Source of the DNA: a virus | Virus record (IMG/VR): IMGVR_UViG_3300033571_004576 | Coordinates: 1-28,180 of that record | Length of the DNA stretch: 28,180 nucleotides | Strand: one strand, 5' to 3' | The notes under the pieces: generated by a model | Told to the model about the DNA's origin: nothing | Databases searched by the model: none | What the model saw: the letters and a program-made list of their open reading frames with translations, nothing else | Made by a program: the position numbers and the translations under genes | Shown: in pieces, positions 2,916 to 24,954 of the stretch | How the letters are laid out: each line of letters starts with the position of its first letter | Position numbering within the stretch: position 1 is the stretch's first letter

Positions 2916-2931
2916 TCTACGTGGGTGCAGA
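2916..2931 (-). promoter_or_regulatory. Degenerate copy of the junction hairpin, upstream of the second fibre gene
   Basis: Coding-strand sequence TCTGCACCCACGTAGA in the 108-nt gap between the tailspike stop and the next fibre start. The left half with its flanking base (CTCTGCACCC) is identical over ten bases to the palindrome before the tailspike gene, but the right half is degenerate; as RNA it still pairs TCTGC with GTAGA through one G-U. The rest of the gap (2887-2994) contains no other feature except an in-frame remnant described in the findings. Confidence 0.4.
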
Positions 2932-2994
2932 GGTGGCGCCATCCCTGCGGCGGATCACGCCGGGGCCAAGGAGTGGGAGCGCTGCGGCTGGGCG

Positions 2995-5151
2995 TTATGC
3001 GGTCCTGGCGATGCTCAGGAAGGCATCATTTCGGTTGTAACTCAGCGGGTTGCCAGAGTCCTGCCAGATTTCAAAGCGGATATTATCCCCCTGCGCAAGA
3101 TAGAGGACGGCAGTGGCGAATACCCGCGTGTAACTCGTTGGGTGCGGAGGGAAGCGCATTTCCTGGCCGATTGGCGCACCGTTTCGCAAAATCTGAATCT
3201 TCCTGTTACCCGTGCTGTTGGCGTTAAAGGTGGCCGTTGCGTTGATCAAATACAGGCCCGATTCTTTGATATAAGCAGCGGCTGCATTGCTTGATGTGCT
3301 GTGCAGGCCTGAGGCGTCGTAAATCTCTGTGCCGAGCAAGTCCACAGCGGTCCACTCGCTGGTTTGCGTGACCCCTGCATTTGCGTCCCCCTTCAGGGTC
3401 GCACCGGGGAACTGAATCCCCTGATAATGCACAGCAGCCCCGCTCACCTCGCAATTCTTGCACGAAATGGTGATGTTCTTGTTGTAGTCCGTGGCGAGTG
3501 GGTTGATCGCAGGAACATTGTTCGCAAATCCGTAGCCAGTGGTTGGCACTGCTTGATTGTCCTCGACGGAGCACCCAACAAACTTTATATCTCTTGGGTA
3601 CAAGCCATCGCTGTCTGTGTCTACATAGAACCCAGCCCGTGTTACATCAGCCCACCCTCCGGGCAGGCAGTTGACAGCCTTGCACCCTACGAAAAGGAGG
3701 CCCTGAGTCCTAAAGCTGTTGTTAGCAAGCGGGTGGGCAGGTTCTTGCGAAGAGCACACAAATCCGGATCCGGTCGTGTTATTCGCTATGCACCCAACGA
3801 TCAGGCCATCATGGGTAACGTTGGCAAACTTAAATCCCCAGGTGCCTGAGTTGTTGGCCGCACATCCTGTCAGCGTGAAACGCCTGTTCCCTTCGTAGGA
3901 GGAAGGGCTTGTGCCGTCGATAACGCTTCCTGAAAAGTCGAAGCCTTGGTCGGCGATGGTAGGGATGCAGTTGTTTACGGCGAAGTCTCGGCACTCAGCA
4001 AAAAGGAATCCACGGGTCCACTTCAGCGTGACAACTCCGGCGAGCCTGGTCCGTAAGTTGTATGCCTGGCAGTCGTCAAGTGTAAAGTTAGCGCAGTTGT
4101 TAATATGGAATCCATTCTGCGAATCATTGGTAGGGTCCGGGGAAGATCCTGATACGCGGTCTCTGACCATGCAGCTGACCACGCTGAAGCGCTTGGCGTG
4201 ACGGATGTGGATACCAGTGCCGCAACCATTCCCGGTAACGGTGACGTTTGAAATGTAAAAGCTCTCGACGTAGGTAGTAGTGGTCCCAGGGCCGGAGCCG
4301 GATTGAGTGCCCAGAACGAACAGCCCGCTATTCACGTCATCCCCGAACAGCGTTGTGATATTGGTGCCCATGTTGATATTGACGTTCTCTACAAGGAAGC
4401 CAGAGATTCCCTCAATACGCAAGGTATGAGCTTGGGAAACGGTAGTGTTGCCGATCTGAATGAGGGTTGCGTTCCTTAGGCCCTTGAAAGATGTGGGCTG
4501 AAGGGTTCCATTGATCGCATACGAAAGCCCCCCTCCGTCTATAACTTTCCCGCTTTCAAGTGCGGCCTTGAGTGCGGCCCGGTCATCCGTGACCCCATCC
4601 CCCACTGCCCCGAAGGCCAACGGGGTCAGGGTGGTGCCGGCGGTGCCCTCGATCTCGGAAATGAGCTGCTTGAGCGCTCGCCCCTGGTTGGCGCTCAGCG
4701 CCGCCAGTTGGCTGGTGCTGGTCAGGTTGTCGATCACCTGGATCAGTGGCGCACCGCCCGCCACAAGGGCAATGGCGTCCTGCGTGATCGCCACCCGGTC
4801 GATGTACTCCTGAACTGCGTACAGGTTCTGGAGGTCTGCAGCGGTCAGCTCAGCAGCCGTGGGCGGGCTGCCGGCCTGCCACACCGATACCAGCGAATCG
4901 ATGGGGGTCACCCTCGCCACCGTGACCGTCTTCCCCAGTGGCGGGGGGACGGTCACGGTCACCAAGGTGTCACTCGGCCAGGTGAAGCCAGTTCCCGGCG
5001 CCAGCTCGCTCTCGAACTCCCCGGTGGTCGCGTTCCTGTTGATGTAGACCCGGACGTGTTCGCGGGCGATGTAAGGGAACGGCACCGCGAACGTGACGGT
5101 GGATCCATTCCCATCGTAAGTGCGATAGGAGTAAGGGGTGGGGAGCGCCAC
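2995..5151 (-). CDS. Tailspike / T7 gp17-like tail fibre with beta-helix domain
   Basis: Tail fibre or spike of 718 aa that should bind the host surface and may degrade polysaccharide. Residues 1-115 resemble the T7 gp17 N-terminal anchoring domain (SYRTYDGNGSTVTFAVPFPYIAR..., ...AADLQNLYAVQEYIDR). A short linker with SANQGRALKQLI follows. From about residue 175 (AFGAVGDGVTDDRAALKAAL) to about 560 there is a pectate-lyase-3/right-handed beta-helix pattern with repeated N-rich strands, typical of depolymerase spikes. The last ~120 residues (SEWTAVDLLGTEIYD...GLYLINATATFNAN...) look like a C1q-like jelly roll used for trimerisation. The only start available is GTG 5151, since an in-frame TGA lies at 5178-5176; it sits 6 nt after a perfect 18-nt hairpin and lacks a strong ribosome binding site. 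GC content falls from the anchor region to the beta-helix, suggesting domain exchange. Confidence 0.88.
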   Translation of the reverse strand: MALPTPYSYRTYDGNGSTVTFAVPFPYIAREHVRVYINRNATTGEFESELAPGTGFTWPSDTLVTVTVPPPLGKTVTVARVTPIDSLVSVWQAGSPPTAAELTAADLQNLYAVQEYIDRVAITQDAIALVAGGAPLIQVIDNLTSTSQLAALSANQGRALKQLISEIEGTAGTTLTPLAFGAVGDGVTDDRAALKAALESGKVIDGGGLSYAINGTLQPTSFKGLRNATLIQIGNTTVSQAHTLRIEGISGFLVENVNINMGTNITTLFGDDVNSGLFVLGTQSGSGPGTTTTYVESFYISNVTVTGNGCGTGIHIRHAKRFSVVSCMVRDRVSGSSPDPTNDSQNGFHINNCANFTLDDCQAYNLRTRLAGVVTLKWTRGFLFAECRDFAVNNCIPTIADQGFDFSGSVIDGTSPSSYEGNRRFTLTGCAANNSGTWGFKFANVTHDGLIVGCIANNTTGSGFVCSSQEPAHPLANNSFRTQGLLFVGCKAVNCLPGGWADVTRAGFYVDTDSDGLYPRDIKFVGCSVEDNQAVPTTGYGFANNVPAINPLATDYNKNITISCKNCEVSGAAVHYQGIQFPGATLKGDANAGVTQTSEWTAVDLLGTEIYDASGLHSTSSNAAAAYIKESGLYLINATATFNANSTGNRKIQILRNGAPIGQEMRFPPHPTSYTRVFATAVLYLAQGDNIRFEIWQDSGNPLSYNRNDAFLSIARTA

Positions 5152-5157
5152 GGACTG

Positions 5158-5175
5158 CTCTGCACGGGTGCAGAG
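5158..5175 (-). promoter_or_regulatory. Perfect hairpin/palindrome before the tailspike gene
   Basis: CTCTGCACCCGTGCAGAG on the coding strand: 7-bp perfect arms around a CCCG loop, filling most of the 24-nt gap between the small membrane protein gene and the tailspike GTG. It belongs to a family with core CTGCANCC(C/G)TGCAG found at the gapped gene junctions of this genome. It may be a phage promoter (compare T7 phi17, just upstream of the tail fibre gene), an operator, or an mRNA hairpin masking the start; the sequence alone does not decide. There is no T-run, so it is not a standard terminator. Confidence 0.55.
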
Positions 5176-5430
5176 TCATTCTGCCGGGTCGTCCTCCTCG
5201 CGCCTAGTTCGGCGTCGTGCCTGGTTCAGGGCCGGGTTGGGGGTCCAGAAGCCGGTCTCGTAGCCAGCGCGGCCCGCAGTCCCCAGGCCCGCCAGGGCGC
5301 CGCCGGTCAGGTAGCAGCTGTCCACCTTGCCGCCGTGCACCCGGCAGTCAACCAGAAAAATTACCCCGAAGGCGATGGCCAGCCAGGAGGCCCCGCCGAT
5401 GGCGCGGGCAGTGGCGCGGGGATCCCTCAC
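5176..5430 (-). CDS. Small membrane protein (84 aa), holin candidate
   Basis: Starts at GTG 5430, overlapping the TGA of the upstream giant gene as GTGA, so it is probably translationally coupled to it. A clear membrane segment is present at about residues 12-28 (GGASWLAIAFGVIFLVD). A second weakly hydrophobic, glycine/alanine-rich stretch lies at about 39-55. The tail is charged and ends RRRTRREEDDPAE. A small membrane protein with a charged C-terminus next to the tail fibre gene resembles the placement of the T7 holin gp17.5, although here it precedes the fibre gene. It could equally be a virion-associated membrane protein. Function is inferred from topology and position only. Confidence 0.7.
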   Translation of the reverse strand: MRDPRATARAIGGASWLAIAFGVIFLVDCRVHGGKVDSCYLTGGALAGLGTAGRAGYETGFWTPNPALNQARRRTRREEDDPAE

Positions 5431-8400
5431 CTCGCGCCACTCAGGGCGTTGATGATCGCCTGCAGCTTCTCCAGCGACTCCTTGGTGCGGGCCTTGACCG
5501 CAGTGGTCTTGGCATCGCTCCAGGCCTTGGCCTCGGCGCTCTTGCCTTCCCTGGCGCGAATCTCCAGCTCGTTGCGGGTCCGCTCCAGGTAATGCTCCTT
5601 GATGATCTGGATCATCAGCTGGGCCGGCTGCTGGCGTCGCAGCGACTGGGGCATGTCCTTGCGGGACAGGTCGGAGGTCAGCCGGGGGTCGGCCTCAAAC
5701 CGCTGGTAGAGCGGGTCGTTGAACAGGGAGCGCATGGCCTCGGCCACCTTCTTCCCCCTGACGTGCTTCTCGAGGTAGCTGGCCAGTTCGATGCTGACCG
5801 TCTCCCCGTCCTTCACCCGGACCCCGTTGGGCAGGACCGCCTGGTACTCGATCGGGTATCTGGCTGTGATGTTCCTGCCGGTCATCTCGTTAAGGGCCAG
5901 CAGCTTGTCACCCCTGACCGATCCGTAGATGTCCACGAACTCCCGCTGCAGGGCTGCAGACATCCCCACCCCGTCGAGGTTGCGGCGGCGGAGCTGCACC
6001 GGCGGGTCCAGCGCACCCATGGCCTCCAGCTCGGGATAGATCGGATCGTTTGGCCAGGCGCCAGGGAAGCCGATCGGGATCACCTTGGCGAAATCGATGC
6101 CGGCGATGTGGCCTCGGGGGCTGCCCAGCCAGTCCACATCTTTCTTGTTGCCTTGGAAGCCGGCCACGAACGGCACGGCGCTGTAGGCGAAATCCCGGAG
6201 CCTCTTCTGCACATCGGCCAGGGGGCCATCGATGTCACCAGCGAGGCCCAGCTGGTACTGCATCATGGGGGTGTTCTTGCCGTCCTGGTACTGGTTGGCC
6301 AGGTCCATGCCGAAAAGGCGCTCGACCGAGTTCACGGCGCCGACGAAGGGCACATAGCCGCCCTTCACCATGAAGCCACCGAACTTGATCAGCGCATCCC
6401 ACGCATCCATGTTCCCGTCCCCCAAGGCACTGACCAGTTGCTGCAGCTGAGCCATACCGGTGCCGCGCATGATGTAGCCGGTCAGCACCTGGGCGACCCC
6501 GTTGAACAACTCGTTGCCGTCCAGGTCGCTGGCGCCCGCCTTGGTCGCCGCGTCCTTGACGTCCTTCCACAAGAACAGGGTGGACAAGATGGGGATGCCG
6601 CCCAGGTAGGGGAGCCCCATGAAGCTGTTCCGCTTGGCGGGATCGGGGTGGGTGTTGCCGGTGATCAGGCCTGCCTGGTCCACGGCGGTGAACAGGGACA
6701 GCAGGCCCAGGGAAATGACCCAGTGGCCAGCCACTTCCTGAAAGAGCTCATCGTCCGAAGCCTTCCGGAACCCTTCGCCGACGTCGGAGAAAAAGCTCCC
6801 GACCCCCTTAAAGTCTGTCTGCTTATAGATCATCGCCAGCATCTTGATCGGGTCGTAGAAGGGGCCGGTGGCCAGCCGCAGATCGAACAGAGTGGCATTG
6901 GCCGGGGCCCGCCAGTAGGGCACGATCGTGTCGAGCCTCCAATCCTTTTTCGCCGCCATCACTGTGCGGTCAACGCCGCTGATCCAGTCTGTCCCGGGCT
7001 CCGCGCCCATGATGCGGCCCCAGTCCGAACTCGGCGTGCCCTGCATCCGCATCTCGGCTGAGTAGTTGAAGGCCCGCACCGATGCGGGGGTGGCAAAGGT
7101 TGGGCCACCGGCCACCTTCTGCTTCACCATCAGGTCCATCACCTCCTGATCGGTGTACCGGAAAAGGTCGTCATCGACCTCAGGCATCCCGTCAAGGCCC
7201 AGCTGGCCATCCATCTGGCCCAGTTTGTGCTGCTTGCGATACGCCTTGATGTTCGCCTCCGTGGGCGTCACCTGATAGATCGCCTGTTCGATCTGGTCCT
7301 GCACCCAGACGTCACGCTTGGCGGGGGTGTCCAGCTCCAGCGTCACTGCCTCAGCCCTGGCCTTCACCTCCAGGTCGCTCATCAGGTGGAACATGTATTG
7401 GAACTTCCCGTGCACCTCATCGAAGGCGCCGAGCAACCGGAGGGCCGGCTGCAGGGGCATGTCGTGCCACAGCTCCTGCAGCTTCAGTCGGACGGCCACA
7501 TTCAACTTGGGCCCGGCCATTGCCACGTTGGCCAGGAAGTTCTTGGTGGCCCACTGCTGCTGTGCGATCCGGTTGGCCTCTGCCCGCACCTCTGCGTTGG
7601 TGCTCATCCGTTTGCCGTAGGTGTCGGGGTTGCCCCCGAACTGACTTTTGCCCCTGAGCACGGCATCCTTGAATAGCTTCTTAAGCCCCTGCCGCGTCAT
7701 GTGTAGGGCGTAGTTGTAGGCCTTGGCGCTGATCTTGGCGCTGTCCAGCAGCCCCAGCCGCTTCAGGCTGCCGGTGCCGGCGGGGACCATCACCAGCCCG
7801 TTCTTCATGGTCTTCTGAAGGGGCCCGTAGAGCATCATTGAGATGTTGGGCATTTCCCCGGACTTGATCAGGGTGACGGTGCTCGATAGCTGCGAGTCCT
7901 TGACCCAGGCCCGCCCCAGTCGCATGGTGGTGTTGAACCAGTCCTTGTCCAGCTTGGCCTTGGGGTCGATGCCTTCGATCTCCAGGGCCTCCACGATGTC
8001 CCGGAGCTGCTGGGCGCCGCCGGGGCCCTGATCCACCGCGTCGATGATGCGGCCGATCACGGAATCAGGACCGACATCCTCAGCCGTCAGCCCCAGGGTT
8101 TCCTCCGGGCCTATCACGCGGGTGGGCATCACGTCTCCATCCTTGGCGCCCTCGGCGCCCCCGGGGATCAGCCGGTCCTCGGGCTTGGACAGCCAAGGCA
8201 CATCAATGAAGTCGGGGATGTCCCCCTCGATCATGTCCGACTGCAGGCTCCGCAGGGTCTTGGCGGTTTGCCCACGGGCGAAGGCCCAGTGGCGCTCACC
8301 CAGTAGGGCCAGCTTCGACCACTTGTAGGCGTCTTGCTTGTACGCGGCGGGCACCTCGGCGCCGGGCAGCCCCTCCATGAAGTCGGCCAGCCTCTCGGTG

Positions 8401-9011: not shown

Positions 9012-9013
9012 GA

Positions 9014-12433: not shown

Positions 12434-15400
12434 CAGGGTTTTCCTCGTTGGTTCGGATCGACCATGACCCGGATGCGCTCCACACCCCGGCTGGTGGAGC
12501 CAAACAGCCTCGTAAAGGCTACCGGTGACAGGTCGATCAGGCGATCCGCTGGCTTCTTCTCAGTGCCGCCCATCTGCCCGGTGTCGTTGGCCCAGACCCG
12601 GACTTTCCGGCCGGTGTTCACGTCCTCCACGATGAGCCATTTGTTCATCAGCCTCGGCTTCAGCGACCACTGCACGGCTGCAGTCATCTGCTTGCCGGTG
12701 AACACCTCCCCATTGGCGGTCCTGCCACCCAGCACCCCATCACTGCCGCCGCTGCCGGTGTAGAAGGTGGCCATGCCGGTCATGGCCCCACGGGCGCCGC
12801 TGCCGCGCCCCCCTGACGCGCCAGGGCTGCCAACGCGAATCAGCCCGATGGCCCCGCTTCGGGATGGGTTCAGCTTGCCGCGGGTTGTCTCGGCAGTCCC
12901 CATCCTGCCGCTCAGGTGCTCAAGGTGAAGATGTGGCCCCGTGCTCCTACCGCTGCCAACCTCTCCCTTCGCACCACCGGAATACGCAATGATCTGATTG
13001 GGCGAGATTGGCGTTCCGTTCCGGATGTTGTCGGGGATGCGCGAAAGGTGCGCCATCCGGATCACGGAACCATTGGGGAGCTGGACATCAACGAAGTTGC
13101 CGTATCCCCCATTGGCTTCGGAGGCCCTGCTGTTCGTCCTGGAGACGCGGACAACGGTCCCACCTACGCCCAGGCCAAGCGGGGTTCCTTGTGCGATCGC
13201 GGCATCCTGGCCTTCGTGGGGGCGGCGGCGGAACGATTCATGCGCGCCGAAACCGCTGCCCAGTTCAGCGGGCTTTAGGCCCCGTGGGGATGCCAGCATG
13301 GTCTGGCCTTCCGATCCCTCGGTGAACCGGCTCCGCAGGGAATGGAAAGGCATCCCGCCTCTGCTCGCGGCCCTGGCCGGCTGGATCCCCAGCATGATGT
13401 CGGCCAGCCAGTTGCCGGCCACTGCGAACGGGCTGGGCCTGCCGGAGCTGCTGATCTTCTGGCCGGCGGCGGTGGCCTTGTTCGCCTTGTCCAGCAGCCG
13501 CTTGCGCTCGGCTGGCCCCAGCAGCCCGGGGTAGCCGTCGCTCTGGCGCAGGAGCCACCGGGCGGGGCTCATGCCGGCGGCCCTCGCCGCACGCTGCACG
13601 GCTGCGCTGGGCGCCTGCCCATCCAGCACCCGCATCACCTCCTTCCTGGCACTGGGCTTTTCGAGGACGACATCGCCGCGCTGGAGCACCTTCGGGTCCA
13701 CGTTGTCGAGGTTGCTGCTGGTGACCGTGGGCGTCCTGCTCCACTGCCGGCCGGGTGGGGGCGGCGGTTCCGGGTTGCCGGTGCCGGACTGCGGCGGCTC
13801 CACCTTCCCGCCCTGGACGCCCGGGCCGCCGCTGAGGCCACCGGGGAACAGGTACTTCCGCAGGTTCTCGTCCTTGGTGGCCAGATACTCGTTGAGGGCC
13901 TGGGTGGCGATGGCGGTCTGCTGGGTGTTGTTCAGCCGGCCGCCGGCCTTGACCTCCGCCTCGTCTATCCGCGCCTGCATGTGCTTGCGGGCCCCCTCGG
14001 ACAGGCGGGTTGTAGCGGTGCTGAGGTTGGCATCGTTGAATGCTATGAACCCCTCTATGTCCTTCAGCCCTAGTTTCAACGCCGCCGCAATGCTCTCCGG
14101 ATACTCGCGCTGCAGTGCCGCAATGACCCCCTGTCTCAGGATCGGGTCGATGATCCCCCGCTTGCTGTTCTGCGCCTCCTTCTCCTTGGCGGTCGCCATG
14201 ACGTGGAACCGCTTCAGGTATTCGGCTTGGACGTCATCGGGCATCCCGGCGATCCGCGCCTTCAGTTCCAGCAGTGCTCTGGCCCGGTTGAAGCCTGCCG
14301 GGCCGATGGCGTCCAGGGCACCCAAGAGCTCCTCCGGGCCGGTTCGCACGGCTTCGCGCTCGGCGATGTTGCCGACGACCCGCCCGTACTTGTCGGTGGC
14401 CTCCAGCATCTGGGCCTTCCCCATCCCCTTCTTTTTCCATTCGGCTTCCAGCTCCAGCAGTGCCGCGCCCCGCTCGGGTGACGCCTCCGGGTATTCGGAA
14501 AGCACCATCGCCAGTTCGTCCTCGTAGCCCCTCTGCAGCGTTGCCTCCTGCCGGGCCTGCTCCTCATACCTCCAACGCTTCTCTGCCCTTATCTCCTCAC
14601 GGCTCTGACTTTCGTCTTCCGCGAAGTCAGGAGCGAACATGCTCCACGCCCGCGGCCTCTTGCCGTCCTTGCCCTTGGGCCCCACCGGGACCCCCTGCAG
14701 GATCTCAAGGAACTCCGTCATCTCCCCCTCTTCTTCCTCGGTCTTCGCCTGGGTCAGCCGGCTATAGGTGACCTCTCGCAGGTAGTCGATGGTTTTGCGG
14801 ATCGTTTCCGTGGTCTCCCCCCGGAGGCCCATCTCTGCCCGGATCCTGCTGATGGACTGGCCAAGCACCAGCTGCATGACGTTCTTGAAGTTGGGGTCAC
14901 CCACCGCTGCAGTCAGAACGATCCGTTCGCCAGTGTCATCGTCGAATCCCCTGTAGGTGACGCTCCCCTCCGTCCTGGCGTTGGCGTAGCTCTGCAGCAT
15001 CTCCACGGCAGCCATCGGCGCCACGGTGCTCTTCTGGAAGGCAGAGAAGGCGTCGTAGTGCTCGGACGAAACCCTGTCCCACGCCTGCGCGATCTCCGGG
15101 TTCACGTAGTCCTGGAAGCCGGCGCTGGTCTCGCTCAGCCCGTACTTCTGCAGCAGCCCCTTGGTGGCGTCCACCTTGATCTGGGCCAGCCGCGGGTCGT
15201 TCGGCTCCCAGGTGTTCGCCTCCGGCGTGCTGCGGTACGCGTCAAGGACGGTGGTCTTCACCTCCCCCGCCGCCAGCCGGGCCAATTGGTTCTCTCGCCC
15301 GGCCTGCCGGAACGGGTTCACCCGATCCATCAGCTGACCGGCGATCGGATCGACCGCATCCACCGCCCGGTTCTGTGCCGCATACTCAGCCCCCGCCCGC

Positions 15401-16622: not shown

Positions 16623-17080
16623 TACATCTTCAGCCTGAAGTAGTGGAACAGGTTGCAGCTGGGTCCGTGCGGCTCAGGTGGGAACACCTCGAACCCCAAA
16701 GACTGCAGCCACCGCACCGATTCTAAGTTGCGTGCACAGACCCAGTTATGGAGCAGTGCCCCGCCGCTCTGCAGTCTCTCCTGCACCAGTGAATTGATCC
16801 AGGCCCTGGCACCCCGGGCCAGTTGCCGCCGGTGCGATTCGGTCGCGGTGAGCGCATCGGTGCCGAGCATCCAGACAAAATGCCCGTTCACCCCGGCCAG
16901 GCCGCAGGGCTGCCCGTCGTCCCCTTCGATCCCGATCACCACATCGCTGTGGCAGAAGGCATCCATGCACGCGATCTGTGGGTGCCGGCCCTCGGCCGCC
17001 TGGAGTTCGAAGCGGTCAGCCTGCCGCAGGTTGCGGGCCACGGCGCGGGCGAAGGCCCCCGATGGGCGGACGATCCTCAT
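16622..17080 (-). CDS. T7 gp13-like protein with acetyltransferase (GNAT)-like fold (152 aa)
   Basis: Small morphogenesis/virion protein in the gp13 position between tail tube B and gp14. I chose ATG 17080 because it overlaps the tail tube B stop as ATGA; the upstream in-frame ATG at 17131 would lie within that gene. The C-terminal part (NLESVRWLQSLGFEVFPPEPHG) has the N-x-x-S-x-x-x-x-x-x-L-G-F pattern of GNAT acetyltransferases and of the phage gp13 family, which is thought to keep the fold without proven catalysis. The core (GDDGQPCGLAGVNGHFVWMLGTDAL) fits the beta strands of the same fold. Whether acetyl-CoA is bound is unknown. Confidence 0.78.
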   Translation of the reverse strand: MRIVRPSGAFARAVARNLRQADRFELQAAEGRHPQIACMDAFCHSDVVIGIEGDDGQPCGLAGVNGHFVWMLGTDALTATESHRRQLARGARAWINSLVQERLQSGGALLHNWVCARNLESVRWLQSLGFEVFPPEPHGPSCNLFHYFRLKM

Positions 17081-19530
17081 CGTGCCTTCCCTCCCAGGAT
17101 CCCCACCCACTCCAGCGTGGTGAACTTGCACGGCCTGGCGGTCCCGTTTCGCAGCGTCACCCTGGCCCGCCGGCCCTCGCTCATGATCGGGATCGAGAAG
17201 ATCCCCTCGGCCGCCGGCCCGGGAGCAGTGAACCGGTAGACCGCTTCGGCCCGGCCCTCGGGCGTCACCGTGGCCTCGAAGTAGCCGCTGTCGTGGTAGC
17301 GGAGCTTGGCGCTCCGGATCTGGGTCCGCACCTCATTCAGCGCCACCTTGCCGCCCCCGATCTCCTTCATTGCCTTGAACCGGGTGAACTCGTAGAAGAA
17401 GTCGTAGGCCTCCCCGAAGAACACCTGGGCTGCGCTCCAGTTCCCTTTCGCGGTGATGGTGGTGGCCCACATGCTGGCCGTGCCGATCCTCACCCCCTCC
17501 TCCCAGGCGCCGCCGCTGCCGTAGGCCGACCACGCCTGCACGGGGCCCGCCGCGTAATAGGGCAGGGTCCAGGTGGTGGTCTGGGTCGTTGCGTTGTACA
17601 CCCCGGGCGCCACCCGCAGGGCCGCCGGTGTCGCCGTGGTGGTGCTTACCCGCCGGTCCAGCAGCAGGGGGTGCAGGGGGCTGTCGTCGTCCACCTGGCG
17701 GTCAGCCACCCGCATCCGCTCCAGCCACACGGACCCGTCCGGGTACTGCACCAACAGGTACAGCACCTCCTCGACCACGCTGATCTCCATGATCTTGGTG
17801 GCGCCGTTGATCTGCCAGTAGCTCCAACTGGCCTGCACCCGCTCGCCGCCGGCCCCGCTGTTGCGGAAGAAGAACTTGTGGGTGTAGATCCGGTTCCGGT
17901 AGCCCGCCTTCTGGCTGATCGCATACCAGGCGTTGCCGGTGGCGTTCACCGCCAGCCGGAACACATCGCCAGGCACATAGGAGCCGGCCTTCTCGTTCAG
18001 GCCCTGGGCATCGGCCACCAGTGCGTTGCCTGCCCCCCGGATCGAGAACTCTCTGAACTGGGTCCACTGCCCGTTCTTCTGGGCGAACACGATGGCGCCG
18101 GCCACCTGGATAGGCCGCACGTCCGGGTCGATCTCGTACTGGGTAAGGACCGTGATCTGCGCCGATGCGGGGGTCAGTGCCTGCTCGGAAGATCCAAGGC
18201 GGAATTGCAGCTGCTCGGAGAACAGAATCAGCTCGTCCTGATAGGTGACCGCATACCGCAGGATCGAAACCTGATTGTTGCTGGCGCTCAGATCGATGGG
18301 GTCGCTGTCGAGAACTGCGATCGTGGTCTCGGGGAAGAACTCGAAGAAGTCCTGTGCCCGACTGAGGATCACCGCCTCGTCTGACAGTATGCCCAACCGG
18401 TTCCGATATACGAAAATGTCGTTAATCGGCTTCCCTATAAATGTCGGGTCAGGCGCACTTTCGTAGTCCCCAGCCGTTCGCCCGCCCCACTGCGGCAGTT
18501 CATAGCCGCTGTAGGTGGTGCCATTGGCCGGGCCGAAGTAGAACTGTCCGCTCGCCAGGCGCACCAGCACGTGGGGCATGGTGGCCGGGTTGATCTTGTA
18601 CTCCACCCCGGGCGCGACGGTCTCCTCCCAGCTCCCCTCCCCGAAGGTGCCGCCGCCAGTCCGCACCTGGAAGCTCACGTAGTAGCCGTCGTAACGGTTG
18701 CCAGGATCGCCCACTACCTCCACCTGATACCCCTGCGGGGCGATGGTCGGCAACTGGGTGAATGACTGCACGCTGTTGGTGATGGCGGTGATGTCGGCGT
18801 TCGCCCGCGCATCGGTGGCCTGCAGGGTGATGGGGTATTCGCTCATGAAATGCAGGACCGATCCCCTCTGATCCATGTACACCCAAGGCGTGACCACCCC
18901 GCCCGTAAACAGGGCCTGTCTCAGCTCGGTGGCGATTCCCTCAGTGCTGATCGGGTAGGTGGTCGTCGTGCCGCCGCTGACGATCACCGGCGCCACCTGA
19001 GTCGTCACGGTGGCCTGGACGCCGTTTACGTTCAGCTTGTAGGTCTGGCCATAGCTCGCGGCCTTTACCCACACCAAGGCCTCATGCACTGCCCGGGGGG
19101 TTGCCGGGGCCAGGGCGTAGTCCATGGCGGCCGACACCAGCCGGTTGGAGATGAAGGTGACATCGGCGATGGATGTGGCCCGCAACTGCCCGTTCGGATC
19201 GGTCACCCCCGCCAGGTAGCCATAGCCGCTCGGGGCGTTCACCGTTCGCGGGCTGCCGTCGAGGGCGAACACGTTGATGCCACCGGCGCGGATCACCGCC
19301 TGGTAGCGCTCGTTCCCGTCGCGAAGGATCGTGTGAACGAACGCATCGCCGTAGCTGCCGTCGGATATCTTGGCCAGGGCCACCGTGGGATCGCGCTTCC
19401 GCAGCCCCTCGCCCAGGGAGCTGACGGCGTTGATCTGCTCCTTGGCCTGGGTCGGATCCCGCTGGGCATCCGCCTGCTGGGACACCCCCTGGATCAGGTT
19501 CGGGATCAGGTAGGTGGTGAGCTCAGCCAC
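17077..19530 (-). CDS. Tail tubular protein B (T7 gp12-like nozzle)
   Basis: Structural protein of 817 aa (T7 gp12 is 794) forming the tail nozzle below the gp11 ring. The N-terminus LTTYLIPNLIQGVSQQADAQRDPTQ...EQINAV is the family signature (PNLxxGVSQQ). Further family-like stretches are FVHTILRDGNERY and DFFEFFPETTIAVLDSDPIDL with the following SNNQVSILRYAVTYQDELILFSE. GTG 19530 overlaps the end of the tail tube A gene by 8 nt, and the gene ends with an ATGA overlap to the gp13-like gene, so all three are probably translated in a coupled way. Complete, no sign of disruption. Confidence 0.93.
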   Translation of the reverse strand: MAELTTYLIPNLIQGVSQQADAQRDPTQAKEQINAVSSLGEGLRKRDPTVALAKISDGSYGDAFVHTILRDGNERYQAVIRAGGINVFALDGSPRTVNAPSGYGYLAGVTDPNGQLRATSIADVTFISNRLVSAAMDYALAPATPRAVHEALVWVKAASYGQTYKLNVNGVQATVTTQVAPVIVSGGTTTTYPISTEGIATELRQALFTGGVVTPWVYMDQRGSVLHFMSEYPITLQATDARANADITAITNSVQSFTQLPTIAPQGYQVEVVGDPGNRYDGYYVSFQVRTGGGTFGEGSWEETVAPGVEYKINPATMPHVLVRLASGQFYFGPANGTTYSGYELPQWGGRTAGDYESAPDPTFIGKPINDIFVYRNRLGILSDEAVILSRAQDFFEFFPETTIAVLDSDPIDLSASNNQVSILRYAVTYQDELILFSEQLQFRLGSSEQALTPASAQITVLTQYEIDPDVRPIQVAGAIVFAQKNGQWTQFREFSIRGAGNALVADAQGLNEKAGSYVPGDVFRLAVNATGNAWYAISQKAGYRNRIYTHKFFFRNSGAGGERVQASWSYWQINGATKIMEISVVEEVLYLLVQYPDGSVWLERMRVADRQVDDDSPLHPLLLDRRVSTTTATPAALRVAPGVYNATTQTTTWTLPYYAAGPVQAWSAYGSGGAWEEGVRIGTASMWATTITAKGNWSAAQVFFGEAYDFFYEFTRFKAMKEIGGGKVALNEVRTQIRSAKLRYHDSGYFEATVTPEGRAEAVYRFTAPGPAAEGIFSIPIMSEGRRARVTLRNGTARPCKFTTLEWVGILGGKAR

Positions 19531-20179
19531 GGAGAATCGAGGTGCGGCGGCCGTGGACCAGCCCGAAGCCGGGGCTGAAGGTGGGGAAGGGCTGCAGCCC
19601 AGGGCCGGCGGTGAGGATGTTGGGCTGCTGCTGGTCGTTCTCCACCCGCAGCAGTTCCGCCCATGCCCTGGCCTCCTGCTCGGCGCTGCTCTGGCTCACC
19701 GCCTGGCTGGTCAGCACCCGCTCCGAGAACACCCGGGAGGCCCGCACCGTGACCCACCGGTTGTAGGCCTCGGGGCACTCGTCCCAGCTCAGGAACAGGA
19801 TCACGTCGGCCTCCAGGTAGGCCACGTCCAGCTCATAGGTGCGGGCTTCCTTGTCGTAGACCCGCAGGCCCCGCAGCTGGAACCGGTGCGCCCACTGGAA
19901 CCGATCGGTGGTGAAGCTCACCACGTTGGCTGGGACCACGATCTCGCCCGTGGAAACATCCCGCTCGAACCTGTAGCCCTCCTCCCGGTTCCACGTCCAT
20001 CCCCTGGTCTGCCCCTCCTTGTGGAGCTCCAGGATCACCCGTTCGGCCATCATGGCCTCGGCGTTCTGCTCGTCCTCGAGGGTGGCCACCGGCGACTCGC
20101 CGATGGCGCCCAGCAGCACGTTCACCGCCTCCACAAGGTTCGTCCGCCCTGGGGTCAGGCTCTGGTTCAGCAGGCCCAC
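19523..20179 (-). CDS. Tail tubular protein A (T7 gp11-like gatekeeper)
   Basis: Structural protein forming the ring between portal and nozzle. The N-terminal signature LVEAVNVLLGAIGESPVATLED matches gp11 (AVNxxLxxIGExPVxTLE). The frame is open far upstream, to an ATG at 20308 inside the capsid gene, but the T7 protein begins only ~15 residues before the signature, so I place the start at GTG 20179 (218 aa; T7 gp11 is 196). That GTG is 5 nt after a perfect 7-bp-arm hairpin and has no Shine-Dalgarno sequence. It is the first gene after the capsid terminator, as in T7. The start is inferred; the identity is solid. Confidence 0.88.
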   Translation of the reverse strand: MGLLNQSLTPGRTNLVEAVNVLLGAIGESPVATLEDEQNAEAMMAERVILELHKEGQTRGWTWNREEGYRFERDVSTGEIVVPANVVSFTTDRFQWAHRFQLRGLRVYDKEARTYELDVAYLEADVILFLSWDECPEAYNRWVTVRASRVFSERVLTSQAVSQSSAEQEARAWAELLRVENDQQQPNILTAGPGLQPFPTFSPGFGLVHGRRTSILRG

Positions 20180-20184
20180 GGGAT

Positions 20185-20202
20185 GGCTGCAGGGGTGCAG
20201 CC
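20185..20202 (-). promoter_or_regulatory. Perfect hairpin/palindrome before tail tube A
   Basis: GGCTGCACCCCTGCAGCC on the coding strand: 7-bp perfect arms, CCCC loop, located 5 nt upstream of the proposed GTG of the tail tube A gene and 27 nt downstream of the capsid terminator. Same family as the copies at 5158, 21367 and 24927. The placement directly after a terminator would suit a promoter restarting transcription of the tail genes; a translational hairpin is the alternative. Confidence 0.55.
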
Positions 20203-20229
20203 CAATCGTACCGGCGAACTGCAGCCATG

Positions 20230-20258
20230 AAAAAGGGGGCCCCCTCACAGGCCCCCTG
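20230..20258 (-). terminator. Rho-independent terminator downstream of the capsid gene
   Basis: On the coding strand AGGGGGCC, an 8-nt loop, GGCCCCCT and then TTTT: an 8-bp GC-rich stem (arms at 20250-20257 and 20234-20241) followed by a T-run. It starts about 23 nt after the capsid stop and corresponds in position to T7 Tphi, which reduces transcription from capsid into tail genes. It is the only clear stem plus T-run that I found in the window. Confidence 0.85.
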
Positions 20259-20280
20259 GTTCTGCCTTCGCCCTCAGAGT

Positions 20281-21288
20281 TTAGGGGATGGAGATGCTGG
20301 CGGCACACTCGGGCCTGAGACTCTTCATGCCGATGGCCATTTTGGCGGTCATCAGGTGAGCCTGGTACATCTTGAAGAAGTCACCGCTGGGATCGGTCAT
20401 CTCCAAGGTGGGCCGCTTCAGGATCAGCAGGCCGGCGGCGTCCGGGTGCCAGATCAGGGCCCGACACTTGGTTAGATCCTGCTGGTACTCCGCGTTCCGG
20501 TCGCCGGTCACGTTGGTGTAGGCGGCCTGGGTGACGTGGTTCGACTCGATCACCGGGATCCCCTTGATCCGAAGCCGGGGGGAGCCGTCAGCAATCGAAC
20601 CGTTCTCACGGCCGGCGAAGTCGGCGTTAATGGCGCGGGTCGATTCCAGGAGGAAGTCGTACTCGTCCGGCGGAACAGCACAGATGAGGTTGTTCGTGGG
20701 GACGCGCTTCTTCTTCATGGCCACCTTGGCGTTACCGATCAGGGAGATCAGTTCGTCGCCTTTGGCGGCCTTGGTGGCAGCGGCATAGCCGGCGCTCGTG
20801 GTCAGGCTGGTGCCGACCCGGTTGGCGTTGATGGCCTTCGCCAGCTGGGGGGTGCTCCGCTTGGAACAAGCAAAGATCACCCGGGCCCCACGGCGGTCCA
20901 CGTCCTCAGCCAGTGCCTCGCCGGCCTGGTGGGAATAGTCCTGCCGCACCGAGTAGTACGCCATGGCCTCGTCCAGCTCGTAGATCTTCTGGGGCGCCAC
21001 AAGCAGCGCATCCAGGTTGATCTCCTCCTCGGCGTGGTCCGAAGGTACGTTGGTGTCCATCTCCGCGATGTTCACACCGGGGGTGTGATACGCGGCGACG
21101 GCGCGGCCGCTCACCGGGAACTTGGCCGAACGGCCACCGGTGATGGTGCGGGTCTTCAGCTTGTCTTTGAAAACGCAGTTCTCATCGAACGAGGTAAGCA
21201 TCTCGGCAATGCCGAGCCGGAGGAACATGGCGAGTGCGTCGCCGGTCCCTCCGATTTGCCCAGTACGGGCGAGGTTGATGGTGGCCAT
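20281..21288 (-). CDS. Major capsid protein (T7 gp10A-like)
   Basis: Forms the icosahedral head shell (HK97 fold in this family). 335 aa, close to T7 gp10A (345). Family features are the N-terminus ending FLRLGIAEMLTSFDENCVFKDK, the VPSDHAEEEINLDALLVAPQKIYELDEAMAYYSVR region split around the usual E-loop/P-domain boundary, and the C-terminal KCRALIWHPDAAGLLILKRP stretch. ATG 21288 follows a 117-nt leader with several inverted repeats and no Shine-Dalgarno sequence; the gene is followed by a terminator. The stop context is CCCC-TAA, and the -1 frame beyond it runs open into tail tube A (see findings). Highly expressed by analogy with T7. Confidence 0.95.
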   Translation of the reverse strand: MATINLARTGQIGGTGDALAMFLRLGIAEMLTSFDENCVFKDKLKTRTITGGRSAKFPVSGRAVAAYHTPGVNIAEMDTNVPSDHAEEEINLDALLVAPQKIYELDEAMAYYSVRQDYSHQAGEALAEDVDRRGARVIFACSKRSTPQLAKAINANRVGTSLTTSAGYAAATKAAKGDELISLIGNAKVAMKKKRVPTNNLICAVPPDEYDFLLESTRAINADFAGRENGSIADGSPRLRIKGIPVIESNHVTQAAYTNVTGDRNAEYQQDLTKCRALIWHPDAAGLLILKRPTLEMTDPSGDFFKMYQAHLMTAKMAIGMKSLRPECAASISIP

Positions 21289-21405
21289 TGGCCCAGGGTT
21301 TGCAGTGAGCGACTGCTACCTCTCTGGGCCTGGCCGGGTTCTCCCCCTCGGGGGGCCCTCCATCCACTGCAGGGTTGCAGAGCAGACTCGTGACGCAAGG
21401 TTACG
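21289..21405 (-). other. Structured 117-nt leader of the capsid gene
   Basis: The longest intergenic gap of the window. Reading in the coding direction it holds an 18-bp dyad overlapping the scaffold stop (21391-21408), the shared palindrome (21367-21380), a CCCCC/GGGGG hairpin with a short loop (21343-21355), and a GCAGT/ACTGC hairpin (21302-21316) about 14 nt before the ATG. No AGGAG-like site precedes the ATG. The capsid gene of T7 also has its own promoter and a stabilising leader hairpin, so this region probably controls capsid mRNA synthesis, processing or stability. Confidence 0.6.
21367..21380 (-). promoter_or_regulatory. Palindrome in the capsid leader
   Basis: CTGCAACCCTGCAG on the coding strand, 5-bp arms, 78 nt upstream of the capsid ATG. 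With flanks (TCTGCAACCCTGCAGTG) it matches the copy at 24927 at 16 of 17 positions. The position corresponds to T7 phi10, the strongest T7 promoter. Confidence 0.5.
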
Positions 21406-21408
21406 TCA
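21391..21408. promoter_or_regulatory. 18-bp inverted repeat overlapping the scaffold stop codon
   Basis: TGACGCAAGGTTACGTCA on the plus strand: 8-bp half sites (TGACGCAA/TTACGTCA) with one mismatched pair and a 2-bp centre. As coding-strand RNA the mismatch becomes a G-U pair. No T-run follows. It may be a protein-binding dyad or an mRNA processing hairpin between scaffold and capsid. Confidence 0.4.
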
Positions 21409-22317
21409 GAAGTTGCTCCGTGCAACTGCAGCGTCTACTTCTTTTCGGTATTTCGGGTCCGTGGTGTAGAGCTTCCGGCCGCGCTCATCCGTCTTGGCCA
21501 TGGCCGCCTGCAGTTCCTCCATGTCCTCGAAGACCATCCCGCCGCCGCTGAGGTTCGCCTTCCCCCCGGCGATCAGCTGGGGCTCCCGGGGCGTCGCCGC
21601 GCTGTAGCGGGCATCGAAGCCCTTCAGCATCGCCAGGGCCGCGGCGCGGTTGCCGCTCTCCAGCATCCCGTTGAAGGCTTCGATCTCGGCCTGATCCACG
21701 TTGGCGGTGACCCACTCATTCACCCGGGCCATGCGCTCAGCGCCGCCGGCCTGCTGCACGATCTCAGCCACGGCGGCCTGATCCAGCGGGGTGCCCTGGG
21801 GGGCGGCCTCGGGCGCCGGGCGGAAGGAGTTGATGTAGCCCTCCACTACTGCCTTGGGGTGGCCGGTGGCCTCGGCCAGCTTGTCGATCGTGGCGGCGTC
21901 GATCTCCTGTCCGGCCCGCACCTTGGCGTCGATCTCGTAGGGGTTCACCTCAGCCGACTCAAAGGCCGCTGTCAGGCCCTCGCCGTAGTCGGCGACGGAC
22001 TTCTCGCGGTTGAACTCGGGCGCCTCCACCGGGGCGGGGGGCTGCTGGTTGGCGCGGTACTCCTGCTCGATCTGCATCAGCCGGAACACCTCGGCCGCGC
22101 TCTTGCCCTTGTATTTCTCGGGCAGGCCGTCGTCCTCGGCGGGGGCCGGGGGCTCCTCCTGCCCCTGCAGGAACTGGCTCAGCGGATCGGCGGCGCCGCC
22201 CCGGCCCTGCTCCTCGCCGGTCTGTTCCTGCAGGAACTCTTCAAGCAGTCCTTCCTGGCCAGGGCCAGCCATGAAGGCAAGTGGGTGCTTCTCGGTGGTG
22301 GTCGGGGTGGTGGTCAT
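21406..22317 (-). CDS. Capsid assembly scaffolding protein (T7 gp9-like)
   Basis: Guides procapsid assembly and leaves before DNA packaging. 303 aa (T7 gp9 is 307). Acidic, E/P/Q-rich and largely helical, with the family landmarks PEKYKGKSAAEVFRLMQIEQ, a middle GxTxxxFxxA-type segment (EGLTAAFESAEVNPYEID) and the basic, capsid-binding C-terminus (GRKLYTTDPKYRKEVDAAVARS). ATG 22317 overlaps the portal stop as ATGA, giving coupled translation of portal and scaffold. Followed by the structured capsid leader. Confidence 0.9.
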   Translation of the reverse strand: MTTTPTTTEKHPLAFMAGPGQEGLLEEFLQEQTGEEQGRGGAADPLSQFLQGQEEPPAPAEDDGLPEKYKGKSAAEVFRLMQIEQEYRANQQPPAPVEAPEFNREKSVADYGEGLTAAFESAEVNPYEIDAKVRAGQEIDAATIDKLAEATGHPKAVVEGYINSFRPAPEAAPQGTPLDQAAVAEIVQQAGGAERMARVNEWVTANVDQAEIEAFNGMLESGNRAAALAMLKGFDARYSAATPREPQLIAGGKANLSGGGMVFEDMEELQAAMAKTDERGRKLYTTDPKYRKEVDAAVARSNF

Positions 22318-23960
22318 GGTTGGGTGGTGGGTTGTTCGCCTTCCGGCGGGGTGTTGGCCATCTGCTGGTAGGCCTGGGCCGCCTGCGCCTGCTTGGCGGG
22401 GTCAGCCGCCGGGGCGGCCATGGCGGCCTGGGCCATCTCCATCTGCCGCTGCTGCTGCATCTGCTCCTGTGCCGCCTGGGCCTCCTGCGCCAGCTCCTCC
22501 TCCGTCTTGATCGCATCGAGGTTTGGCAGGTTGCTGGCGGTCGCCATCTGGGTCACCAGTCGGTTCACCTTCAGGAATTGCGGCACGGCCTCGGGGCCCA
22601 GCAGCTTCACCAGCAGATCCACGAACTGGGTGATCCGCTCCAGGTCGTTGCCACGGCCAACGGCGGCCAGGCCCACGGACACCACCGGCTTGACCAGCCT
22701 CTTGTCCAGCGTCGGCAGCTTCCCTTCCCTCGTCAGCAGGGCGATCATCCGGCGCACGTAGGGGTGCTGGAACTCCACCACGAGGATGCTGTAGAGCGAC
22801 CCCAGGGCGTTCTCCAGCTGGAGCGCCTGCAGCCGCACCTCGCTGGCTGTGGTCCGCTCGGAGTCGCGGAAGTTCTGCAGCATCATGGCCTGGGACAGCC
22901 TGGCGGTGATCCGCTGCTCGGTCTGGGCTGCCACCGCCAAGTCGGCACTCTTGCCCACCTGGATCGGAAACACGTCATCCGGCATCACGGAGATGGCCGC
23001 ACCGTTCGCCGCATCGGTGAACTGCTTGGGTGTCACCTGGCTGTGGGGCTTCACCCCGAAGATGCACCGGGCGCTGATCAGGGCCCCCTCGGCGATCGCC
23101 TGGCTCAGCACATCACCGGTGTGCAGGTCGGCCATGCAGGCGGCCTCCACGAACCCGGGGCTGTAGTCCTGGCCGTCCAGGTGGTACATCCGGAGCGGGA
23201 TCCAGGGCGACTCATCGATCGGGCTGTGCCCATTGGTGTCCGGGATCTTCTGCTTGTGGAGCTCCTGATGCCAGGTGACCTTCTTCGCCTTCCAGTCCCA
23301 CTCGATCAGGGTGTAGACCTTCACCAGCTTGTGCTGGCTGCCCAGGCCCGGGGCCCGCTCGTCCTCCTTGCCCACGCTGGCCTTATGGATCTTCAGCGCC
23401 GCCTCGGGCAAACTCTTAACCGTGAGCTGTTCGCAGATCACCGCCAGGCTCGGCCGCCCGCTCGGCTCCCGCTTCAGCACGTACCGGCCCAGCCCGTACA
23501 TCCGCAGCCCCTCGGCCGGCCGGTAGGCCAGCACGTTGCCAACCACCAGCAGTTGCAGCACCCCCTCATGCAGCACTGGCCGGTCGTTGCTGTGCTCGAT
23601 CGCCTTCAGCGTGCTGCGCTCGATCACATTCAGCGCCTTGTCGAACTCGGCGCGCTCCTTCGCCACCTGATCCTTGTCCTCCCGGTCGGCGGTGACTCGG
23701 GCCATCTCGATCTCATCAATCGTCAGGCGGAAGAACGGCTCGGTCGGTGGCAGCAGTGCCATCAGCAACCGGCTTGCCAGGTTGGTGATCCCCTGCTGGC
23801 CCACGCCATTCCACGGCAGCGACAGATCAGGGGTGGACCCCGGGGTGGGGGTCTCCTCTGGCATCAGGTAGGGGATGGTCAGCTGGGCCGCCTGCTTCCC
23901 CCGGTTGATCCAGTAAGCCCGGTCACTCAGCAGATCGTTGTAAAGCTCCTCGGCGCTCAC
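22314..23960 (-). CDS. Portal protein (T7 gp8-like head-tail connector)
   Basis: Dodecameric portal through which DNA is packaged and ejected; 548 aa against 536 in T7. The N-terminus shows family features: RAYWINRGKQAAQLTIPYLMP, the WNGVGQQGITNLASRLLMALLPP segment split over WNGVGQQGITN and LASRLLMALLP, and FFRLTID. The C-terminal ~50 residues are Q/A/M-rich. The start is GTG 23960, one base after the TGA of the upstream MCGGG protein gene. It ends in an ATGA overlap with scaffold. Complete. Confidence 0.93.
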   Translation of the reverse strand: MSAEELYNDLLSDRAYWINRGKQAAQLTIPYLMPEETPTPGSTPDLSLPWNGVGQQGITNLASRLLMALLPPTEPFFRLTIDEIEMARVTADREDKDQVAKERAEFDKALNVIERSTLKAIEHSNDRPVLHEGVLQLLVVGNVLAYRPAEGLRMYGLGRYVLKREPSGRPSLAVICEQLTVKSLPEAALKIHKASVGKEDERAPGLGSQHKLVKVYTLIEWDWKAKKVTWHQELHKQKIPDTNGHSPIDESPWIPLRMYHLDGQDYSPGFVEAACMADLHTGDVLSQAIAEGALISARCIFGVKPHSQVTPKQFTDAANGAAISVMPDDVFPIQVGKSADLAVAAQTEQRITARLSQAMMLQNFRDSERTTASEVRLQALQLENALGSLYSILVVEFQHPYVRRMIALLTREGKLPTLDKRLVKPVVSVGLAAVGRGNDLERITQFVDLLVKLLGPEAVPQFLKVNRLVTQMATASNLPNLDAIKTEEELAQEAQAAQEQMQQQRQMEMAQAAMAAPAADPAKQAQAAQAYQQMANTPPEGEQPTTQP

Positions 23961-23961
23961 G

Positions 23962-24354
23962 TCACACCCCCAGGTTCAGGCCAGCGCCTGCTTCGTTCTG
24001 GGTGCTGCCGGGCGTGATCTTCAGGCTGTCCTTCCGCTTGCGCCGTGGCGTGGTCGCCTCCGTGGTCAGCGGTGTGGTGGGCGCCTCGGCCGTGGTTGTG
24101 GTGGCGTAGGTGGTGGTCTGCCTGGCGGCGGCCTCAGCAGCAGCGGCGGCCTCTTCGGCGGCCAGCTCTTGCTGGCGCTGCAGCGTCATCTGGGTGATCG
24201 TGTCCGTCTGCGCCTGCAGCTGTGCAGCCATCGCCTGCTGCTGAGCGTTGGATTCCTGGATGAACTGCTTGGTTTCCTTCTCCTGCTTCCGCATCGCCTT
24301 CTTGTCGTACTTCTCTTCCCGCTGGCGTGGCTGGGTTGGTCCTCCTCCGCACAT
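23962..24354 (-). CDS. MCGGG-type small coiled-coil protein 2, upstream of portal (130 aa)
   Basis: I chose ATG 24354 because GAGG lies 8 nt upstream and overlaps the stop of the preceding gene; the ATG at 24396 would start inside that gene. The protein begins MCGGGPTQPRQREEKYDKKA, then a long charged/Q-rich coiled coil (residues ~15-80), a T/A-rich linker and a basic motif (TPRRKRKDSLKITPG) near the C-terminus. A small protein with an N-terminal cysteine-glycine run just before the portal gene is common in podoviruses; a head-completion or minor virion role is likely but unproven. It is similar in opening and C-terminal layout to the next gene upstream, so the two may be diverged duplicates. 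Confidence 0.78.
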   Translation of the reverse strand: MCGGGPTQPRQREEKYDKKAMRKQEKETKQFIQESNAQQQAMAAQLQAQTDTITQMTLQRQQELAAEEAAAAAEAAARQTTTYATTTTAEAPTTPLTTEATTPRRKRKDSLKITPGSTQNEAGAGLNLGV

Positions 24355-24364
24355 GGCAAAATCC

Positions 24365-24760
24365 TCAGGTGATGTTGAGACCGACGCCGACCGCATCGGG
24401 GATGGTGCTGGCGCGGTTGATCCGCAGCAACCTCTTGCCCTCTGCCCGCTTCTGTCCGGTGCGGGCGTCGGCCACCTTCGGGGCCTCGGCGGTTTTCTCC
24501 GGCGCCGGGGGGCCCAGCAGGTTGGCCAGGCGATCGGCGTTCGCCTGGGTCTCGTTGGCGCGTAGGGTCTTCACCTGGGCCAGGTCTTCCAGCACCAGCT
24601 CCTGCCCCTGCAGCGCCATGTTCAGCCCCACCTGTGCCGCCTCGAGGACGCCTTGGCGCTGGGCCTTCATCACCTTCAGCTGGAGGGCCGCCTGCTCGTT
24701 CGCCTGCTTGTAGTTGGGGGATGTGATCGTGGCGCCCCCGCCGCCCCCACCGCCGCACAT
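24365..24760 (-). CDS. MCGGG-type small protein 1 (131 aa)
   Basis: ATG 24760 overlaps the stop of the 55-aa gene as TGATG. The protein starts with MCGGGGGGGATITSPNYKQA, followed by a helical, Q/A-rich region (residues ~18-75) and a C-terminal KRLLRINRASTIPDAVGVGLNIT. The C-terminus (VGVGLNI) resembles the end of the following protein (GAGLNLGV). No signal peptide precedes the cysteine, so this is not a lipoprotein. Probable minor head or virion protein by position; function unknown. Confidence 0.75.
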   Translation of the reverse strand: MCGGGGGGGATITSPNYKQANEQAALQLKVMKAQRQGVLEAAQVGLNMALQGQELVLEDLAQVKTLRANETQANADRLANLLGPPAPEKTAEAPKVADARTGQKRAEGKRLLRINRASTIPDAVGVGLNIT

Positions 24761-24927
24761 CAGTAGTGCCCCTTGTTGAGGTTGATTTCAGCCTCTACCA
24801 ACCGCACCACTTCGACGTTGCCGGTGATGCGATCCATGGTGCGATGATCGGTGCCCGGGTCAGGACACCGATCAGGGAAGCGGGCCCTGAGCCACGCGAG
24901 ATGTTCCTCGGTCCAGATCGGGAGCAC
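24760..24927 (-). CDS. Short hypothetical protein at the start of the head module (55 aa)
   Basis: Frame from GTG 24927 to TGA 24760, too short for usual ORF cut-offs. The sequence (GTG)LPIWTEEHLAWLRARFPD... continuing to ...NVEVVRLVEAEINLNKGHY is amphipathic and protein-like, with a WTEEHLAWLRARF helix. It ends in TGATG with the next gene. An in-frame TAG at 24957-24955 (the stop of the preceding gene) limits the start; apart from the GTG the first alternative is ATG 24834, which would give only 24 residues. The GTG is part of the palindrome CTGCAGCCCTGCAGTG. No Shine-Dalgarno sequence. Function unknown. Confidence 0.6.
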   Translation of the reverse strand: MLPIWTEEHLAWLRARFPDRCPDPGTDHRTMDRITGNVEVVRLVEAEINLNKGHY

Positions 24928-24940
24928 TGCAGGGCTGCAG
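24927..24940 (-). promoter_or_regulatory. Palindrome at the border of replication and head genes
   Basis: CTGCAGCCCTGCAG on the coding strand in a 27-nt gap, just after the stop of the CFGGPLDG protein gene and ending in the GTG of the 55-aa gene. It marks the switch from DNA-metabolism genes to virion genes, a typical place for a class III (late) promoter in T7-like phages. Identical to the intragenic copy at 5946. Confidence 0.5.
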
Positions 24941-24954
24941 ATGTTGGCCCAAGT

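Follow-up and report, generated by a model that had tools for sequence, protein, structure and literature searches.

A conserved palindrome at the gene junctions of T7-like phages is a candidate operator for a phage-encoded MarR-family protein

The virus fragment IMGVR_UViG_3300033571_004576 (28.2 kb; the whole analysed stretch is called the window here) carries the palindrome CTGCA-N4-TGCAG at most of its larger gene gaps. This palindrome is probably a DNA operator, recognised by a homodimeric MarR-family protein that the phage itself encodes. The evidence is computational and consists of the occurrence and intergenic placement of the palindrome, its conservation, the behaviour of its half-sites, the MarR fold, and an association between arm sequence and MarR recognition helix; from it we infer MarR binding, dimerisation, repression and lysogeny. 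Among the functions that an original prediction from the sequence had offered for the element, a repressor or activator operator is the best supported, and the phage MarR-family protein can now be named as its predicted binder.

The window aligned end to end with contig G001 (IMGVR_UViG_3300032308_001472, 43,214 bases) at 99.96% identity, corresponding to G001 positions 6777-34956, and the remainder of the genome was read from G001. The phage is T7-like (Autographiviridae) and its closest isolate is Synechococcus phage S-SRP02 (capsid 59%), which suggests a cyanobacterial host. G001 encodes a T7-type RNA polymerase (RNAP; 36926-39367), an integrase-like protein (40169-41167) and, beside the integrase and outside the window, a MarR-like protein (41534-41848, reverse strand). 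All intergenic counts given below rest on a purpose-made gene finder that recovered 42 of the 47 annotated stops in S-SRP02.

Occurrence and placement of the palindrome

The window contains seven copies of CTGCAN4TGCAG against 0.04 expected from dinucleotide shuffles. Six have the form CTGCANCC(C/G)TGCAG and lie where the original prediction had placed them, every one on the coding (-) strand. From the full gene list, exactly five gaps between genes exceed 23 nucleotides (nt), with lengths of 108, 24, 101, 117 and 27 nt. Of the seven perfect copies, four fall at these gaps, each at a different one (binomial p = 2e-6), in agreement with the earlier observation. The fifth gap had been described as keeping half of the motif, and does so in the form CTGCA-CCCA-CGTAG, in which one half-site is well preserved. 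The remaining three copies (5946, 12670 and 24214) are within genes and are probably coding coincidences. The proximity to start codons can be refined: three copies had been placed within 6 nt of one, but the start codon overlaps the copy at 24927 and follows the 14-mer by 7-8 nt in the two others. The copy at 24927 has the same placement and start overlap in G015, G017, G018, G019 and other relatives, and the capsid-junction copy is kept at -86 to -97 in approximately 80 relatives.

A motif scan of the complete genome and its relatives, comparing intergenic with coding hits, placed 83 of 104 perfect copies between genes (22 related sequences, with noncoding DNA amounting to 2-18%). When every possible 5-bp arm with a 4-nt spacer was scanned in the intergenic DNA of ten genomes, CTGCA was found 44 times and the runner-up 5 times. 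Thus, a single sequence is repeated and not hairpins generally. In G001, the terminase operon runs in the opposite direction and the copies upstream of it (3821 and 1346) are reversed likewise. Further copies at 36869 (loop CTGA) and 39904 (loop CTGT) precede genes after the RNAP gene, and degenerate copies occur at 39431, in the space separating the RNAP start from the gene upstream, and at 42036, ahead of the MarR gene.

Half-sites and the MarR recognition helix

At the capsid junction (approximately 80 relatives) and the tail-tube junction (approximately 45), the arms are retained and the loop is free. Either arm may vary singly, as CTCCA or TGGAG, TTGCA or TGCAA, and CTACA or TGTAG, with CAACA occurring on the left as well, and no paired two-sided arm changes were observed in 34 distinct capsid and 43 distinct tail-tube sequences. 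Since equivalent one-sided changes occur in both arms, the arms behave as half-sites of a protein dimer rather than as a selected RNA stem. The uniform loop orientation reported earlier holds in the window but not as a general trait, as relatives keep the arms and alter the loop; an NCC(C/G) loop in this orientation is local to the window lineage. Within that lineage, the loops of the window copies at 5160, 20187, 21367 and 24927 and of the G001 copies at 3821 and 1346 all read NCC(C/G) along the direction of transcription, an orientation that a symmetric dimer leaves unexplained.

MarR, integrase and RNAP genes form a module that all genomes with sequence over this region possess, among them the MedDCM phages S31-C1, S37-C6 and S38-C3; contigs G002 and G007, in which the MarR region is missing, fall outside this comparison. 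The Pfam MarR_2 score of the G001 protein is under the curated cut-off, but the structure match is clear. The AlphaFold model (predicted local distance difference test, pLDDT = 92.6) matches MarR-family structures that include the E. coli MarR-operator complex (5h3r) and the MepR-DNA complex (4lll). The residues that differ among the MarR proteins, 51-53, open helix 50-60, which is the recognition helix in the AlphaFold model.

In phage S37-C6, the equivalent junctions carry CTAC-N6-GTAG and the MarR helix reads NASASR in place of NS[ST]VSR. Two more collection scans with MarR extended the comparison to approximately 90 MarR loci. Among dereplicated loci with a clear operator, the helix NS[ST]V (S51) occurred with CTGCA in 17 of 17 and the helix NA[SA][AV] (A51) with a CTAC-type operator, also in 17 of 17. 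The search patterns for the operator types were picked after S37-C6 had been seen; unsupervised arm counts agree with them in G001, G014, G022, G028, G044 and S37-C6. A MarR tree calculated with the helix columns left out shows two operator changes, one at the deep split and one in L302/G044, with the helix changing both times, and a third operator type, GTGCA, adds one event. This third type is represented by G046 (helix PSAV), in which three GTGCA-N4-TGCA[TC] sites are intergenic and none is coding, and G047 (helix NSAV) has GTGCACTAGTGCAT at its tail-tube junction. With the helix NASVSRT, G044 has four CTAC-N6-GTAG and five mixed sites, while G045 and contig P385 have mixed half-sites. A separate observation is that one phage, G035 (L354), contains two neighbouring MarR-like genes at approximately 3407-4579.

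Alternative explanations

The suggestion that the palindrome acts in RNA, as a hairpin at the 5' ends of mRNAs that serves as a processing site, a stabiliser or a start-codon mask, is very improbable. A stem of 5-7 bp with a 4-nt loop close to many start codons, including one perfect 7-bp arm pair, does have the appearance of such an element. However, it fails the covariation test: pairs are often broken by one-sided mismatches (C-A, G-G, A-A and A-C, with capsid pair 1-14 being C-A in 47%), and no compensatory change to another Watson-Crick pair was found in the 77 distinct capsid and tail-tube sequences, on which ground the hairpin was rejected. It is also the stem sequence that is fixed and the loop sequence that is free, and the capsid copy is approximately 75-90 nt away from its start codon. 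A promoter of the phage's single-subunit RNAP, T7- or Syn5-like and with the palindrome lying within the recognition sequence, has more in its favour and is nonetheless unlikely. The placement at late-gene junctions is like that of T7 late promoters, the element is conserved, and the polymerase that the original prediction had asked for is encoded (PF00940 matches in G001, G003 and G006). The copies are oriented with transcription, those of the opposite-strand terminase operon included, and no other repeated intergenic motif of similar strength was found. What weakens the promoter reading is that the same CTGCA arms occur with very different RNAP specificity loops: GLQSMQMDIQEAAPDGE in G001, GKPCYVN... 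in G006, GNRRWQA... in S-SRP02 and GQKAWSF... in S38C3. Conversely, G046 and G047 have an RRW-type loop like that of S-SRP02 yet have other arms. Since differing loops share arms and the RRW-type loop spans different arms, the arms follow MarR and not RNAP. The element is moreover palindromic with a variable spacing to its upstream element, and the mapped phage promoters of LUZ100, which were rejected as a model for this reason, are non-palindromic.

The specific link to Syn5 did not hold. The Syn5 promoter is ATTGGGCACCCGTAA (PMC3950665), a fixed 15-bp requirement, and the genome contains no match to it with fewer than three mismatches; the best matches in G001 have 3-4 mismatches and none is at a palindrome. 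Some copies contain GCACNNGT, and with their placement before late genes they do resemble Syn5 and T7 RNAP promoters, unlike which they have a free loop and arms that are independent of the RNAP loop. The GCACCC likeness carries no weight because the loop and its orientation are confined to the window lineage. It is improbable, though less so than the RNA hairpin, that the binder is another dimeric regulator, either a host protein or a phage protein. Symmetric half-sites by themselves indicate only a dimer, and the window encodes a second possible regulator, an HTH_36-like protein (25205-25678) that scores just under the Pfam cut-off. A host factor would hardly account for arms that differ between phages of one clade, and it is the recognition helix of MarR, whose gene is universal in the clade, that tracks the arms.

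Several observations weigh against the MarR operator. As only two operator changes occur on the tree, the arm-helix association falls short of significance when judged by independent pairs. The AlphaFold model of MarR is a monomer, few recognisable perfect sites are found in the NAAV helix group, and G025 has little intergenic enrichment. LUZ100, which is likewise T7-like with a MarR gene and whose start sites have been mapped, has no such palindrome at its phage promoters. Finally, conservation at the capsid junction is higher in the left arm and the upstream flank than in the right arm, beyond what a plain dimer site needs, which also favours the promoter reading; a phage-polymerase promoter that overlaps the operator is possible at this junction.

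Predicted regulation and relation to known systems

The coordinates of the palindrome copies and neighbouring features are collected in Table 1. At the tail-tube junction, a -10-like [TC]ANNAT ends 4-5 nt ahead of the palindrome in 42 of 43 distinct sequences, and the tail-fibre sites resemble this layout with [TC]ANNAT close upstream. The distance is 4-5 nt at the tail tube and tail fibre, approximately 9 nt at the small head-module gene, and approximately 16 nt at the capsid. Variable spacing between junction types fits two independent elements, one -10-like and the other the palindrome. The -10-like element is common to phages with unrelated RNAP specificity loops. Because it remains constant while the specificity loop changes, promoters used by a host-type polymerase are favoured at the palindromes.

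Table 1. Palindrome copies, -10-like elements and adjoining genes in the window.
Feature	Position	Strand	Remarks
Small gene heading the head module	24760-24927	-	GTG start
Major capsid protein (Gp10A-like)	20281-21288	-	Pfam PF21703, E 1.5e-29
Tail tube A gene	19523-20179	-	Gene finder; post-capsid position as in S-SRP02
Tail fibre gene	2995-5151	-	PHROG tail fibre families, best E 2.4e-18
Predicted operator CTGCAGCCCTGCAG	24927-24940	-	Before small head-module gene; final base doubles as the start-codon G
Predicted operator CTGCAACCCTGCAG	21367-21380	-	78 nt upstream of capsid start
Predicted operator CTGCACCCCTGCAG	20187-20200	-	7 nt before tail tube A start
Predicted operator CTGCACCCGTGCAG	5160-5173	-	7-bp arms over 5158-5175; 8 nt before tail fibre start
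Decayed putative operator CTGCA-CCCA-CGTAG	2917-2930	-	Fifth large gap; followed by GTAGACTT
Intragenic copy	5946-5959	-	Also intragenic in relative G002; probably coding coincidence
Intragenic copy	12670-12683	-	Probably coding coincidence
Intragenic palindrome, different loop	24214-24227	-	Probably coding coincidence
-10-like TAGACT within CCCGTAGACTTGGG	24952-24957	-	11 nt upstream of operator; putative function
-10-like TACGAT	20205-20210	-	4 nt upstream of tail-tube operator
-10-like CAGAAT	5178-5183	-	4 nt upstream of tail-fibre operator; relatives have an equivalent element

Other candidate promoter elements were considered. The exact 8-mer GTAGACTT is present at three G001 junctions (3803, 9689 and 31727), twice upstream of the operator and once beside the decayed copy, and may be part of a lineage-specific promoter. 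As a phage promoter, GTAGACTTGGG was found at three places in G001 only, and the exact GTAGACTT was not found in S-SRP02, G006 or G008. The longer capsid-junction element CATGAGTTGNTCTGCAC was discarded as a general promoter since it occurs about once per genome and at the capsid only. Two other features of these junctions were observed. Downstream of the operator, the capsid 5' leader (window 21300-21366; relatives L036-L105) retains a nested inverted repeat, GGGCCTCC..GGGAG(A)..CCC, that may form a leader structure. A terminator-like hairpin with a T-run (window approximately 20226-20250) comes right after the capsid gene, just upstream of the tail-tube operator, and is kept in nearly all relatives.

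The predicted operators lie at or just downstream of a -10-like element and head almost all transcription units, both early and late. A MarR dimer bound there would sit over the start site and prevent initiation or early elongation, so that one phage repressor may act on most transcription units. The phage would thereby be kept silent in a lysogen or until the repressor is lifted. A broader proposal, for which the chances appear evenly balanced, is that one MarR protein acts on early, polymerase and late structural promoters across a T7-like clade comprising the window lineage, S-SRP02 and Nohivirus, Oinezvirus and Stopalavirus relatives. Within the clade, helix and operator would have changed in pairs and given rise to specificity (immunity) groups, namely NS[ST]V with CTGCA, NASV with mixed sites, NASA with CTAC, and PSAV with GTGCA.

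T7-like phages are textbook lytic phages. A candidate repressor, its operator and a predicted regulon named from sequence alone bear on whether and how some of them turn temperate, and reduce the question to short pieces of DNA and one small protein. If true, the late structural genes would be repressed directly and not merely starved of phage RNAP, and it could be forecast which of these phages mutually exclude one another.

LUZ100 (PMC10134795) likewise has a MarR-like gene that adjoins a tyrosine integrase gene and lies upstream of the gene for the phage RNAP. In temperate T7-like phages, MarR had been proposed as a lysis/lysogeny repressor on the RNAP promoter, as cited in that paper. The phages here differ from LUZ100 in that their sites extend to the junctions of late structural and terminase genes, form a defined palindrome and correspond to the MarR helix. 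The palindrome itself, its spread across late structural genes and the helix-arm match thus appear to be new. The S-SRP02 paper mentions MarR and the integrase, but not promoters or motifs. The nearest functional analogue would be the L5-type stoperators of Cluster A mycobacteriophages, which are described as many transcription-aligned repressor sites in short intergenic gaps, asymmetric and read by a monomeric repressor (PMC9283540, PMC6550527). The putative repressor sites here are likewise many and intergenic, but differ from stoperators so described in being palindromic with equivalent halves, in the MarR fold and in having a -10-like element just upstream. Palindromic sites are also typical of MarR-family operators such as those of E. 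coli MarR and S. aureus MepR, which are read by a winged-helix dimer, and a MarR fold is encoded here. The differences are a predicted phage regulon that is genome-wide, as opposed to one or two divergent promoters, and a very short MarR protein (approximately 105 amino acids).

By eye, GGCGGAATCGGTATACGCAGCGGACTTAAAA, on the reverse strand between the integrase and RNAP genes (G001 approximately 39450-39480; L019 approximately 19450-19480), resembles part of a tRNA-Leu gene. Similar stretches occur in S-SRP02, G006 and P385. Lying just upstream of the polymerase, the stretch is a likely attachment site. When 399 genomes from a single cyanobacterial order were searched for RNAP, four gave strong matches, and the other matches were much weaker. 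The best full contig, G385 C17 (L402-L404; 44.8 kb), is no proof of integration because it is a whole related phage contig within a cyanobacterial assembly, without host flanks. Contigs of the clade in a metagenome-assembled genome titled Gammaproteobacteria bacterium MED656 (G055 / L357) probably reflect a binning error.

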